Shown here in pieces: positions 1,122 through 6,034 of a stretch of 34,719 bases of DNA; position 1 is the stretch's first letter; every line of letters starts with the position of its first letter. Both the position numbers and the translations under genes were made by a program. The DNA is from Paludibacter sp. GTDB taxonomy: Bacteria > Bacteroidota > Bacteroidia > Bacteroidales > Paludibacteraceae. Below the pieces are notes generated by a model that worked only from the letters and a program-made list of their open reading frames with translations, made no database searches and was not told where the DNA came from. The DNA lies in the NCBI GenBank assembly GCA_029973975.1, contig JARKQF010000322.1:1-34719 (forward strand), given 5' to 3'.

Positions 1122-2000
1122 ATGCTAAAAAATACATACGGTTTATCTGTGGCAATATCAAGTAAAATCCACAAAGACGCAAAAACAATAGAAATTTTTG
1201 CCGGTTCATCACTTAACAGAAAACCTCCGGTAAAAAACAAGCCAATTATAACAATCGAAGATTTAAACGGGGTAGAAATTCAGGAAGTACCCGAAAAACC
1301 GAAAATTAAGAAATTGCGTTCTATGTCTCAACGGACAAAACAGAAAATCAGAAAGAAAGTTACAGCATTTTCACAAGCATATGAAAAACTGAATTTTTTA
1401 ACCCTGACTTTTGTTAATCGGGTAGAGGACAGAAAAGCGGTTGCAATCCTGGGGAGGTTCCTGGATAATTGTAACAAACAGCTAAAAGATTTTCAGTATA
1501 TATGGGTAGCCGAACGGCAAACCAAAAATCTCACATTTCCGGATAACATACATTTCCATCTGATAACAAACAAGTATTTCAAAATTGAAAAGTATTGGGA
1601 ATACTGGATAAAGCTTCAGGAGCGAAACGGAATACTTCCACGCTCGCAAGACTACAAAGCATCATCATCGTTCGATATCCGGCGTTTAAACGCCAAAAAC
1701 ATCAAAGCAATCGGACAGTATATAACAAAGTATATCATCAAGAACAAAGATGAGTTCGATTGTCAGGTGTGGAACTGCTCAAAAAAAATATCAATGCTCT
1801 ATACTGATTTTTATTCCGACTATGATTTTATTCATAACATTGAAAGGATATTAGAAACCGAAATAGAGCCTATTCCGGCGGAATACTGCACCGTTTATCC
1901 TGTGCCACTTAATCGGCTGACTTTGCCGATGTATGAAAAGTTAAATGAGAAAAATAAAAATCTAATCAACAATAACTTGAGCAGATTTATTAAGGATTAA
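1122..2000 (+). CDS. HUH rolling-circle replication initiator (ORF2/G2P-like Rep)
   Basis: A 292-aa protein with the three motifs of HUH endonucleases in order: motif I FLTLTF at about 92-97, motif II IHFHLI with H144 and H146 as the metal-binding HxH, and motif III QYITKYIIK with Y200 or Y204 as candidate nicking tyrosine and K203 and K207. Such proteins nick one strand at the origin, stay bound through tyrosine, and start rolling-circle replication of plasmids or filamentous-phage-like elements. The arrangement resembles the replication-associated ORF2/G2P group more than IS200 or IS91 transposases. The N-terminal 65 residues are basic and without a recognised domain. Iterons lie immediately upstream. 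No integrase or phage morphogenesis gene is visible, so the element may be partial or extend to the left. Confidence 0.8.
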   Translation: MLKNTYGLSVAISSKIHKDAKTIEIFAGSSLNRKPPVKNKPIITIEDLNGVEIQEVPEKPKIKKLRSMSQRTKQKIRKKVTAFSQAYEKLNFLTLTFVNRVEDRKAVAILGRFLDNCNKQLKDFQYIWVAERQTKNLTFPDNIHFHLITNKYFKIEKYWEYWIKLQERNGILPRSQDYKASSSFDIRRLNAKNIKAIGQYITKYIIKNKDEFDCQVWNCSKKISMLYTDFYSDYDFIHNIERILETEIEPIPAEYCTVYPVPLNRLTLPMYEKLNEKNKNLINNNLSRFIKD

Positions 2001-2022
2001 TTGTTACAATTTAAATAATAAT

Positions 2023-2106
2023 TATCTTTGAATCCAGATTTAATTTATTATCACATTGATAACATAGTGTAACTTAATATATAATTATACAACAAAATTA
2101 CCTTTG
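2023..2106 (+). promoter_or_regulatory. Candidate promoters for the lipoprotein gene
   Basis: Two TAnnTTTG boxes lie in the AT-rich gap after rep: TATCTTTG at 2023-2030, with ATTG 19 bp upstream as a possible -33 element, and TACCTTTG at 2099-2106. The second would start transcription roughly 75 bases before the lipoprotein start. Between them is a small palindrome, TTATC-N5-GATAA (2049-2063). The rest of the gap shows nothing else. Confidence 0.4.
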
Positions 2107-2187
2107 TTTCCTTGTTTTTTCAGTTTGTTAAATAGATTATATAAGAAAATGGAAAGTAAGATTATGAAACCTAATAATAATTGTATT

Positions 2188-2637
2188 ATGAATAAATATT
2201 TAAAAATCTCATTTTTATTGTTAACTTTTTTGATTACGCTATCATCTTGTTCTAATGATGAACCGAGCACAAATGAACCTTGTGCAGATGAATCAACAAT
2301 AAATAATAATGATGGTTCAGCCACAAATAATGACAAACCAGCAACAATCGACAATTATTATGTTAAGTATGTTATAAAATGCAGTCAAAATCGTTATTAC
2401 GTAACCAAATTTTCAGTAAATACAGACAAAGGAATTGTTTATTTTAGCGATTATTTAAGTAAATATTGGACTCAAACGTATGGCCCAGTAAAAAAAGGAT
2501 TTACGGCCTCCGCTACTGCAGAGAGTACATATCCGACTATCGAAATATATGTTTCTAAAAACAATGAACCATTTGCATTGAAAGCCACTAATACAAAAAA
2601 TACAAAAGTAACCTCATCATATACTATTGATTTTTAG
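2188..2637 (+). CDS. Small surface lipoprotein, function unknown
   Basis: A 149-aa protein with a type II signal peptide: MNKYLKISFLLLTFLITLSS followed by the lipobox Cys, then SNDE. Acidic and polar residues straight after the Cys fit the Bacteroidetes lipoprotein export signal, so the mature protein is probably displayed on the cell surface. Next comes a low-complexity Asn/Thr/Asp/Glu linker (about residues 22-50) and a small domain of about 95 residues rich in Tyr, Thr and Lys, likely beta-stranded. In-frame ATGs at 2104, 2149 and 2164 exist, but only 2188 puts the signal peptide at the very start. I do not recognise the C-terminal domain. It lies between rep and the nuclease pair and is probably cargo of the element. 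Confidence 0.65.
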   Translation: MNKYLKISFLLLTFLITLSSCSNDEPSTNEPCADESTINNNDGSATNNDKPATIDNYYVKYVIKCSQNRYYVTKFSVNTDKGIVYFSDYLSKYWTQTYGPVKKGFTASATAESTYPTIEIYVSKNNEPFALKATNTKNTKVTSSYTIDF

Positions 2638-2774
2638 AAATAAAAAATGTTTTTAATCATAGTGAAAATATGACAACCGATATTAATCTATTTAAGAATA
2701 TATAGACATTTAATGAGCCAAATTACAGATGTAATCAGTAATGTTTTTATGTGTTTGTAGCCACTTCAAAAAAG

Positions 2775-3899
2775 TTATAAATTTCTCTCCTGTTTAGCCG
2801 CAACAATATCTATATGTGCTTTTTGACCATGTTTTTCTAATAAATACAATAAATGACCACCATTTAGTAACGTTAATGGTTTGCCGTTTGCAAAATCATA
2901 TGAATCTTTCCCATAGTCGGAAGTTGTAATCAATATCCCTTTTGTGGCTCCTTCATTTATTAATGTTCCATATAAATCCCTTACTGCTGAAACTCCAACC
3001 GTATTTGTATATCTCTTTGCTTGTATCACAATTTTTCCCCCACGAATTGGGTCAGGGTCAAAAGCAATTGCATCAACACCACCATCTCTACTCGCTTGTG
3101 TAACTTTAACTTCTCCGCCGTTCTGACTAAATTCCTTTTCAAATAACTCCCGTACTAAATGCTCAAAATCATCCCAATCCATAGATGCTAAATTTGTGCC
3201 TTCATTTATTTGAATATCTTTAGACTGAATAATTCTTTTATCATCTTTATTTAAGGTCATTATAGGTTGTATTGCAGATAAGTTGTATAAGGTAGTACTT
3301 CCAACTCCTTTTAAATTTTTAAAACATTGTTTGGGGTCTACGTATTGCAAATTTATTTTCTGAAAAACATCCTTGGTTACATAAATTGAAACGATACAAT
3401 TTGTCTCTACATTACCATTTGATTTATTAATTGATGTTGTCCATCCATTGAAATTTATTGCTTCAATTGCATTTATTTTGTCATTATAAAATAATTCATG
3501 TATGCTTCTTAATACTATCTTGTATGTTACAGAATCATACATTTTATTAATTTGATTTTCTGTTAAATAATATTCTCTTATTTCATTATATTTTGCAATA
3601 AATTTAACGTCTTTAATTTTTGGGAGGTTCTCTGGAATTGGAAGTTGATAATTTACAGCTAGAATTTTGTTTGTCTGTGAATAAATAAGTTCTATCAACT
3701 TTGGGAATTCAAAAGGATATGCAGAATAGGTCAATATTAACTTACAGTATTCTTCAATTACTAATGCTGATATTTCATTTGAAAAATACTGTTGTTTTAA
3801 TAGGTCAATTTGTTTATTATAACTATCTCTTGCAGAATAGAAATTCTCCTTACGTAATTTCCAATCTTGCTCTTCTAATATTACTTTATTGTCATTCAT
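2775..3899 (-). CDS. Mrr-type restriction endonuclease (PD-(D/E)xK nuclease)
   Basis: A 374-aa protein with a C-terminal Mrr catalytic domain at about 238-358. Visible motifs are MDWDDFEHLVRELF (helix with the conserved Glu), RDGGVDA with D276, and VIQAKRY with Q293 and K295, the D...QxK core of Mrr nucleases. Family members cut DNA, often modified DNA, and act against phage or foreign DNA. The N-terminal 230 residues lack a named domain that I recognise. They start with a charged helical segment (1-60) and contain an FNGW element and a DPKQCFKNLKGVG motif that I recall from other Mrr-like proteins, where they probably sense DNA or a partner. It is the second gene of a minus-strand pair, 18 bp after the coiled-coil membrane protein. 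Native target unknown. Confidence 0.85.
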   Translation of the reverse strand: MNDNKVILEEQDWKLRKENFYSARDSYNKQIDLLKQQYFSNEISALVIEEYCKLILTYSAYPFEFPKLIELIYSQTNKILAVNYQLPIPENLPKIKDVKFIAKYNEIREYYLTENQINKMYDSVTYKIVLRSIHELFYNDKINAIEAINFNGWTTSINKSNGNVETNCIVSIYVTKDVFQKINLQYVDPKQCFKNLKGVGSTTLYNLSAIQPIMTLNKDDKRIIQSKDIQINEGTNLASMDWDDFEHLVRELFEKEFSQNGGEVKVTQASRDGGVDAIAFDPDPIRGGKIVIQAKRYTNTVGVSAVRDLYGTLINEGATKGILITTSDYGKDSYDFANGKPLTLLNGGHLLYLLEKHGQKAHIDIVAAKQERNL

Positions 3900-3917
3900 A
3901 ATATTATAATTAATGCA

Positions 3918-4346
3918 TTATTTAGGAGAAATCAACAACATAAAAAATATAAGAAGTAGTATAAAAAGAAAAATTGCTGCAGAATCCCAAAAATTTCTTC
4001 TTTTAAATTTTTCAATGTTTTCCAACCTAATTTTCTCTCTTTCTAATCTTTCCTGTTCTTCTTGTTGTTCTTTTAACAAACGCTGTCTTTCTATTTCTGC
4101 TTGTTCCCTCTGATATTCGATATCTTGTAATTTGCGTATTCGTTCTTTCTCTGCTTCACGATGTTTTTTTAGGTCTAAGATTTTTTGTTTTTCTTCAAAA
4201 ATAATCCTTGGATTGATTTCAGTAAATACAGAATAGTCCTTAAAAAAATCAAAATCATACTTTTTATAAAGTCCATCAATTAATAAATTATCAACATCTA
4301 CAAGCTTTTTTTTTGCCGCAATTGAATATCTATCTTCATTTTCCAT
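3918..4346 (-). CDS. Coiled-coil protein with C-terminal membrane anchor, nuclease partner
   Basis: A 142-aa protein without a recognised family. Residues about 50-115 are almost entirely Glu, Lys, Arg and Gln with Leu and Ile spaced as in a long coiled coil. Residues about 121-139 (SAAIFLFILLLIFFMLLIS) form one membrane helix, leaving only a few residues at the C-terminus, so it is a tail-anchored protein with its coiled coil in the cytoplasm. The first 50 residues (aromatic and acidic, YDFDFFKDY) could form a small head. It is directly upstream of the Mrr nuclease on the same strand with an 18-bp gap, so the two are surely co-transcribed. A role as membrane sensor or tether of the nuclease is inference. 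Confidence 0.65.
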   Translation of the reverse strand: MENEDRYSIAAKKKLVDVDNLLIDGLYKKYDFDFFKDYSVFTEINPRIIFEEKQKILDLKKHREAEKERIRKLQDIEYQREQAEIERQRLLKEQQEEQERLEREKIRLENIEKFKRRNFWDSAAIFLFILLLIFFMLLISPK

Positions 4347-4480
4347 ATTTCTAAGAGTTTTATAAGATGATGGATATAACTATACTAACTGTCCCCTGAA
4401 GTGTTCTCTTTAAAAATCTAAATTGTTATATGACATTGTATATCAGCGTTTAAAATGCAATAAGTTAATTCTCGGCGGGG

Positions 4481-5131
4481 CTACAAAATCAAACCGTCTT
4501 TCATTTCTATAATCCTGTCCGACAAGGCTGCCAGTTCTTTATCATGTGTCACAATCACAATAGTTAGTCCGAACTTTTTCCTCAAGTCGAAAAGTAATTT
4601 ATGTAGTTCTTCCTTGTTTTTGGAGTCTAAACTACCGGACGGTTCATCTGCTAAAATGATTTTGGGATCGTTGATCAGGGCACGGGCAACCGCGACCCGC
4701 TGTTTTTCTCCTCCCGATAATTCTGACGGTTTATGCTCGAGCCGGTCGCTTAATTGCAGATAATGCAGTAATTCCTCCGCTTTTAATTTTGCTTTTTTGT
4801 TATTTTGATTGGCAATCAACGCCGGTATCATCACGTTTTCGAGTGCCGTAAATTCTGGCAATAGCTGATGAAACTGAAAGATAAACCCGATTTGTCGGTT
4901 TCTGAATGCAGCCTGTTGTTGCTCATTCATGTTACCGACATCCTGCCCGTCGACCTCCACGATGCCCTTATTGGGCTTATCAAGTGTCCCGAGAATTTGT
5001 AGTAAAGTTGTTTTGCCTGCTCCGCTGGGACCGACAATAGAAACAATTTCTCCGGCTTTTACGTTTAAATTGACACCTTTCAGTACTTCAAGCTCATCAA
5101 AGCTCTTGTGAATATTGGTTGCTTGTATCAT
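4481..5131 (-). CDS. lolD: ABC transporter ATPase, LolD type
   Basis: A 216-aa ATP-binding protein of the LolD/MacB class, which powers a membrane partner that extracts lipoproteins from the inner membrane. All ATPase motifs are present: Walker A GPSGAGKT at 34-41, the Q-loop in [11 protein letters not shown], the signature LSGGEKQR, Walker B IILADEP and the switch His in VTHD. The membrane subunit is not next to it, which is common in Bacteroidetes. A GTG start at 5152 would lie within the probable -7 box (CAAAGTTA at 5152-5159, TAACTTTG on this strand), so the ATG at 5131 is preferred. Another MacB-like export role cannot be excluded. Confidence 0.85.
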
Positions 5132-5192
5132 ATTAAATGAATTATTGGTCACAAAGTTAACTATAAATGGAGAAATTATATCTATAAAAAGT

Positions 5193-5200
5193 TATTTTTG
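5193..5200 (+). promoter_or_regulatory. -7 box (TATTTTTG) of the metallopeptidase gene
   Basis: TATTTTTG matches the Bacteroidetes -7 consensus TAnnTTTG and lies 23 bp before the ATG at 5224. It is divergent from the lolD promoter at 5152-5159. No good -33 TTTG is seen. Confidence 0.45.
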
Positions 5201-5223
5201 CATCTTAATTTAGTCGAATCTTC

Positions 5224-5922
5224 ATGCGTGAACTGAATGTTTTCGGGAAAGTAGAATTTGTTAGAAGTAACCGTGCTCATCGCATTACGGTCAAAATTTT
5301 ATTGGATGGCTTGAGGGTCAGTCTACCCTACCGTAGCAGTGAGACCGAAGCTACCCGTTTTATCCTGAACAATCAGGATACGATTTTATCAAAACAAGCG
5401 CGTATCCGGGCTAGGCGTATCAACACTGTCATCACTATTGAAAAAGAAATCAGCACAAGAACATTTACAATCAAAGCAAAATATGCTGATCGTTCAGATG
5501 TGTTTTTTAGTCTGAAAGATGGTTTTTTATTGATTGAGGTGCCTGGAGACGCAAATATAAGTTCTCCTCAGGTTCAGGAAGTATGTTGGAACGGCATCAA
5601 TTATTTTCTGAAAAAAGAAGCCAAAAGGATACTTCCTCCTCAGGTAGAACTATTGGCGAATCAATACGGTTTCAATTACTCAAGCGTTAAGATACAGTCC
5701 AGCAAAACCCGGTGGGGTAGTTGTTCTAAAACGCAAAATATCAATTTGTCGTTTTACCTGATGTTATTGCCGTCTTATTTGGCTGATTATGTTATACTTC
5801 ATGAATTGTGTCACACTGTGGAGATGAATCATGGCGAACGTTTCTGGAAACTGATGGATGAAGTAACCGGTGGAAGAACTAAAAAATTACGGACAGAAAT
5901 AAAACGGTTTGCGATACCTTAA
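5224..5922 (+). CDS. YgjP/WLM-type zinc metallopeptidase (DUF45)
   Basis: A 232-aa protein of the YgjP-like, SprT-related metallopeptidase family. It shows the zinc site HELCH at 193-197 with E194 as the catalytic base and H203 in MNHGERFW as probable third ligand. The family hallmark KTRWGSCS lies at 161-168. The N-terminal half carries the usual beta-rich domain. The length agrees with family members. The physiological substrate of these proteins is poorly known. The gene stands alone, transcribed away from lolD, and is followed by a hairpin near 5965-5985. Confidence 0.85.
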   Translation: MRELNVFGKVEFVRSNRAHRITVKILLDGLRVSLPYRSSETEATRFILNNQDTILSKQARIRARRINTVITIEKEISTRTFTIKAKYADRSDVFFSLKDGFLLIEVPGDANISSPQVQEVCWNGINYFLKKEAKRILPPQVELLANQYGFNYSSVKIQSSKTRWGSCSKTQNINLSFYLMLLPSYLADYVILHELCHTVEMNHGERFWKLMDEVTGGRTKKLRTEIKRFAIP

Positions 5923-5950: not shown

Positions 5951-6028
5951 ATAAAAAGCAAGAAGGGCTGTCATCACGACAACCCAATCTTTTTTTGTTA
6001 ACCTTAAATCTAATACTATGAAAAAATC
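5951..6028 (-). ncRNA. Candidate minus-strand small RNA of about 75-80 nt
   Basis: A complete Bacteroidetes promoter faces left at 6035-6066. About 50 bases after its expected start site lies the hairpin GGGTTGTC-GTGAT-GACAGCCC (minus strand, 5985-5965) followed by TTCTTGCTTTTT. On the minus strand the stem pairs fully, with one U-G wobble. Read on the plus strand the same position is a C-A mismatch, which argues that the structure is kept for a minus-strand transcript. No start codon with a reasonable reading frame is inside. The hairpin may also end the metallopeptidase transcript, since a T-run follows on the plus strand too. Function unknown. Confidence 0.5.
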
Positions 6029-6034
6029 ACGATG

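Follow-up and report, generated by a model that had tools for sequence, protein, structure and literature searches.

Two adjacent open reading frames (ORFs) on the minus strand of a Paludibacter sp. contig are probably the two halves of one single-chain nuclease of the Mrr type, the type that PADLOC models as mREase_IV (PDLC03663), whatever the present fate of the two pieces. The window (the whole stretch of 34,719 nucleotides that was analysed) is the entire contig C136 of a draft genome, and a sequence-only reading of it had described the ORFs as a minus-strand pair of 142 and 374 aa spaced by 18 bp. These positions and lengths agree with ours (Table 1), but the two ORFs also share one reading frame, with a single TAA and six codons between them, which that reading had missed. 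In our view the locus most likely represents a known family of single-chain Mrr nucleases in split form, unusual in having a membrane tail where the chain is broken.

Table 1. Coordinates of the features discussed, in positions of the window
Feature	Position	Strand	Remarks
Rolling-circle-type Rep	1122-2000	+	PF23343, 38.8 bits (cut-off 27.8); phrog_3419
177-aa ORF, lipoprotein-like by reading	2104-2637	+	between Rep and nuclease
374-aa ORF (P0001), probable C-terminal piece	2775-3899	-	helix end aa 3-39, alpha/beta domain ~69-180, Mrr nuclease 237-353
In-frame TAA separating the ORFs	3918-3920	-	followed by six in-frame sense codons, 3900-3917
142-aa ORF (P0002), probable N-terminal piece	3918-4346	-	likely arm module 15-47, charged coil ~50-117, membrane helix ~120-140, stop TAA
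Stretch coding aa 15-47 of P0002	4206-4304	-	similar to the conserved N-terminal arm module of the single-chain family
BTncRNA_FopS, a Bacteroidetes small RNA family (Rfam)	5952-6030	-	67.6 bits, gathering score 56

The nuclease, the small protein and their surroundings

The catalytic D and the QxK that follows it form the motif of Mrr enzymes. In P0001 the Pfam scan assigns the nuclease domain to Mrr_cat (PF04471, E 3.4e-31, residues 237-353), which together with NA-iREase1 makes up the matches above cut-off, and the residues D276, Q293 and K295, already singled out in the sequence-only reading, are invariant in an alignment of 6 sequences, as are the corresponding columns in an alignment of 13. 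The Mrr identity that had been claimed for this nuclease is likewise upheld, and the family is a restriction family listed in the defence database PADLOC, where residues 26-363 of P0001 match positions 198-532 of the 544 positions of PDLC03663 with 175 bits. The match excludes the N-terminal part of the model and, as it starts at position 198, the central region upstream of the Mrr domain is present in P0001. No stop interrupts this half of 374 aa, in which D, Q and K are all retained. The AlphaFold2 model of P0001 is of moderate quality (mean pLDDT 69.3, pTM 0.47), with a helix (3-39) at the front, and a phmmer search of P0001 against the PDB sequences returned nothing at E 1. The best Foldseek matches of this model and of that of the intact relative L035 were the modification-dependent endonucleases MspJI and AspBHI (4f0p, 4f0q, 4oc8; E 6e-6 to 1e-3), with TM-scores by query of 0.15-0.25 overall and rmsd values mostly of 18-22 Angstrom, apart from two shorter alignments with 4.0 and 5.8, so that the nuclease core is comparable at most.

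The small protein P0002 is, as had been proposed, a charged coil followed by one C-terminal membrane helix, and this helix is strongly hydrophobic (best 19-residue Kyte-Doolittle mean 2.94). P0002 has no Pfam match above cut-off and no match in PADLOC or PHROGs, and its NCBIfam matches fall far below cut-off. No separate relative of it was found in viral contigs, in a search suited to close relatives, or in plasmids, by BLAST with the low-complexity filter on. A search in 60 genomes returned, besides its own locus, only two matches, which are confined to the coil and membrane helix and which we read as belonging to putative TPR-type signalling proteins.

The earlier description of the surroundings as an AT-rich element with a rolling-circle Rep stands in part. 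The Rep assignment holds and positions 2001-4000 are AT-rich (two 1-kb blocks at 27.5 and 27.8% G+C, the other 32 blocks at 34-42%), but the Rep gene itself sits within a 34% G+C block, outside the AT-rich ones. The element that carries Rep is truncated by the contig start, its left limit lying outside the window, and tblastn of Rep at E 1e-3 against the phage and plasmid collections gave no match. The 177-aa ORF has weak family matches only, for example to BamJ with 17.1 bits against a cut-off of 100. With our own regular expression for a Bacteroidota-type promoter motif, no promoter for the nuclease alone was found in the 18-bp gap, and one match lies within the small ORF, at 4196-4226 on the minus strand; sigma-70-like sites were not more frequent than in shuffled sequence (18, with 19.6 as the shuffle mean), and a search of 1900-5300 for terminator-like sites gave none. 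The promoter and terminator scans were uninformative.

Single-chain relatives and the N-terminal arm

To compare the pair with its relatives we used 53 loci carrying a relative of P0001, of which 7 are from genome contigs, 6 from plasmids, 21 from viral contigs and 19 are new loci from whole-genome searches; the plasmid loci are the 6 opened of the 182 plasmid records that match P0001, and the single matching record of the phage collection was left out. The whole-genome searches (cut-offs 1e-40 or 1e-30) found relatives, own genome included, in 10 of 395 genomes of the window's phylum, 4 of 393 of its order and 2 of 200 of its family, and in 2 of 395 genomes in the class search, none of them new. 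Relatives were also present in 7 of 164 genomes in the order of G224 (4 new), in 8 of 371 in the class of G039 (2 new) and in 1 of 6 in the family of G1211 (none new). They span the window's own phylum, other named phyla, plasmids and viral contigs, and are not all independent, 43 of 46 being left after arms at least 90% identical were dropped (L056 and L057 were added later).

In three of the 53 loci (L006, L008 and L019) the gene is disrupted, by in-frame stops or by a frameshift, which may be either decay of the nuclease or errors in draft genomes, and two more (L027 and L028) are truncated by the end of the locus and were left out of the intact set. In each of the remaining 48 intact, N-complete relatives the nuclease runs on upstream as a single chain uninterrupted by any stop, and the part that matches the nuclease has 158-310 residues in front of it when the count starts at the in-frame stop that precedes the open frame; in L048 this upstream part has no ATG and another start codon would be needed. 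An N-terminal arm in the same chain is common to the intact relatives and absent from the nuclease ORF in the window, where its module likely lies on a separate ORF.

No second split copy was found among the 53 loci. L027, with an open frame of 385 aa, was considered as one and rejected because it is cut by the locus end, as is L028, and L019 was rejected because a stop combined with a frameshift is not a clean split. L007 (3071-5278) encodes a 736-aa protein that is extended at the C-terminus by about 65 further residues, cysteines among them, and on two of the six plasmids opened (L022:745-6014 and L023:912-6011, from Agrobacterium and Xanthomonas plasmids) a large AAA or DEAD/DEAH helicase gene lies immediately before the nuclease gene, with which it possibly forms a unit.

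The sequence-only reading had taken the small protein for the dedicated partner of the nuclease in a two-gene unit and had suggested counting how often the two genes are adjacent. That count does not support a partner gene: as separate genes the pair is rare, in the sense that all 48 intact relatives carry it as one gene. A true two-gene defence system, in which a dedicated coiled-coil partner would sense phage attack at the membrane and signal it to the nuclease, would fit the common strand and the 18-bp spacing, and membrane-anchored defence nucleases do exist, ShdA being described as present only in the membrane fraction (PMC10270631). We nevertheless consider such a system improbable, since the pair occurs as separate genes in 0 of 48 relatives and the small protein was not found alone in the viral contigs or plasmids.

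As a test of whether P0002 corresponds to the arm that P0001 lacks, a whole-arm HMM was tried and rejected as a proof of homology, being too weak by shuffles (152 of 10,000 shuffles by best domain, and 188 by full score, beat P0002), and the module was therefore tested alone. The module HMM, built from 43 relatives only and without the window, matches P0002 residues 15-47 with 12.3 bits (E 5.9e-6 for one sequence), a score reached by 0 of 20,000 shuffles of P0002 aa 1-55 and by 2 of 20,000 shuffles of the whole protein. For an earlier version, the borders of which had been set on an alignment containing the window, the match scored 10.9 bits and was exceeded by 1 of 10,000 shuffles. One ORF of the window outscored P0002 in the first test of the module, and this was P0002's own ORF read from stop to stop. 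Direct comparison with L026 gave a BLAST E of 4e-5 for one subject, a local alignment score of 61 for the first 60 residues of P0002 (best of 2,000 shuffles, 60), and a phmmer full-sequence E of 0.012 after bias correction, with a best domain at 1e-5. These scores suggest that residues 15-47 of P0002 are likely homologous to the arm module. The link between the two ORFs that had been assumed earlier is supported in a different form, because the module of P0002 is fused to the nuclease in the relatives. It counts against the split-gene identity that the module match is short and that two ORFs share a frame by chance in 1 case of 3.

Like P0001, five single-chain relatives match PDLC03663, and the window differs from them in that its arm would lie on a separate ORF ending in a membrane helix. 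Three of the five match from positions 28-43 on, and L035 and L026 match only from 187 and 195 on, much like the window, so that the profile alone does not show a missing arm in the window and its N-terminal part is not conserved in all relatives.

It could also be argued that P0002 is an unrelated neighbour that matches the module by chance, the nuclease gene having lost its arm. Coiled-coil proteins produce spurious similarity, the whole-arm HMM performed weakly in its control, and the two matches to the coil and membrane helix lie in proteins of other kinds. The module match, however, precedes the coil, its order and strand are as expected, none of the 20,000 shuffles of residues 1-55 or of the 2,000 shuffles compared with L026 scored as high, and the two ORFs share a frame, and on this evidence a chance neighbour seems unlikely to us. 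The two ORFs as halves of one gene remain the preferred explanation.

The break and the membrane helix

Read as one frame, the 524 codons of 2775-4346 on the minus strand contain stops only at codon 143 and at the final codon. A frameshift as the source of the membrane helix of P0002 was rejected, since stops are numerous in both alternative frames across the small ORF, with no sign of a frameshift. The position of the break can be estimated from the AlphaFold2 model of the intact relative L035 (mean pLDDT 84.9, pTM 0.53, 18 sequences). In order along the chain, this model has a small beta domain and a helix (42-95), then the module region and one unbroken helix (168-258), and after these an alpha/beta domain and the Mrr nuclease. 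W13 and F39 of P0001 align with W232 and F258 of L035, the first few residues of P0001 being placed elsewhere by the program, so that by extrapolation P0001 begins inside helix 168-258 and the break falls near L035 residue 220. The gene in the window would thus be cut inside the longest helix predicted for L035.

To find membrane helices in the relatives, hydrophobic helices were scored as 19-residue windows with a hydropathy of at least 1.6. At the position of the break no membrane helix is present in any of the 48 intact relatives, and no counterpart of the coil and membrane helix of P0002 was found at the same place in the relatives examined. Marginal stretches (1.61-1.66) occur in L020, L025, L044 and L005 at or beyond chain residue 223, and the one in L005 lies downstream of the break, close to P0001 residues 40-47 in the alignment. 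Hydrophobic N-terminal helices are found in L026 and L005 and in none of the other 46. L026, a relative from the window's order with 56% identity, is an intact single chain (L026:1483-3276, minus strand) whose own N-terminus has two or three hydrophobic stretches, and is probably, judging from its sequence, a membrane-anchored Mrr nuclease in one chain.

The pair may simply be a single-chain gene inactivated by a nonsense change, or the stop may be an error of the draft assembly. Such decay or artefact is compatible with the split-gene identity and denies only a working two-piece enzyme. It would account for the one in-frame stop between the ORFs, the source is a draft genome (85.7% complete, 5.7% contaminated, 358 contigs), and 3 of the 53 relatives are themselves broken. 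Yet the strong membrane helix lies just before the stop, where 0 of 48 intact relatives have one, which argues against plain decay; an end resembling a tail anchor is not expected from a chance nonsense change, and no further stop is present in the 524 codons. Weighing these points, we hold decay or artefact to be a serious possibility, somewhat short of an even chance.

A possible two-piece enzyme

In the preferred reading the break in the chain is in frame and falls within the long helix, and the front half ends in a membrane helix that the relatives examined do not have at this place. The most likely substrate of the nuclease piece is foreign DNA, probably carrying modifications. Should both pieces be produced, their helices would bring them together, and the nuclease would be held at the membrane by the front piece. 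We infer a role of the nuclease in defence because PADLOC names its model a type IV methyl-directed restriction enzyme and because relatives reside on plasmids and viral contigs, and the two pieces may both be expressed, pair, tether the nuclease and defend the cell. A naturally split, membrane-tethered Mrr nuclease, formed by fission in the long helix and gain of a tail anchor, with the coil capturing the nuclease and releasing it on infection, is a tentative proposal that we find rather doubtful.

Known systems offer partial parallels. GmrSD is a single-chain type IV restriction enzyme that has also been cloned in a stop-split, re-initiated two-chain form, and that clone, according to the report, 'still retained activity', the split having arisen during subcloning (PMC4437046); a two-piece form is therefore workable in principle. 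GmrSD differs in being an HNH nuclease, per its abstract, whereas the window protein carries Mrr_cat and its Pfam scan contains no HNH. The Shield protein ShdA is described as a membrane-anchored defence nuclease for which cloning failed when the anchor was missing (PMC10270631), and differs from the window protein in being an RmuC nuclease in one chain with an N-terminal anchor, the Pfam scan of the Mrr protein containing no RmuC. Elsewhere, coils are reported to be encoded separately in type I-B CoCoNuTs (PMC11090510), and Mrr_cat is reported on STAND NTPases (PMC9122126). Among the matches listed in a search of titles and abstract starts in the open-licence literature, none dealt with an Mrr pair that is split or tail-anchored.

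Because no second split copy was found, a single draft genome is all that stands behind any function of the split form, and the lack of such a copy also argues against a widespread two-piece form. If the halves are made and cooperate, the locus would be an example from nature of a single-chain Mrr nuclease working in two pieces, and of a type IV-like enzyme that has moved to the membrane, as is reported for ShdA. Should the tethered reading be true, then together with L026 and L005 membrane tethering would have arisen more than once in this nuclease family. If the halves do not work together, the locus is a caution that adjacent ORFs in defence genes can be one split gene, which in this case was revealed by checking the reading frame and the relatives.
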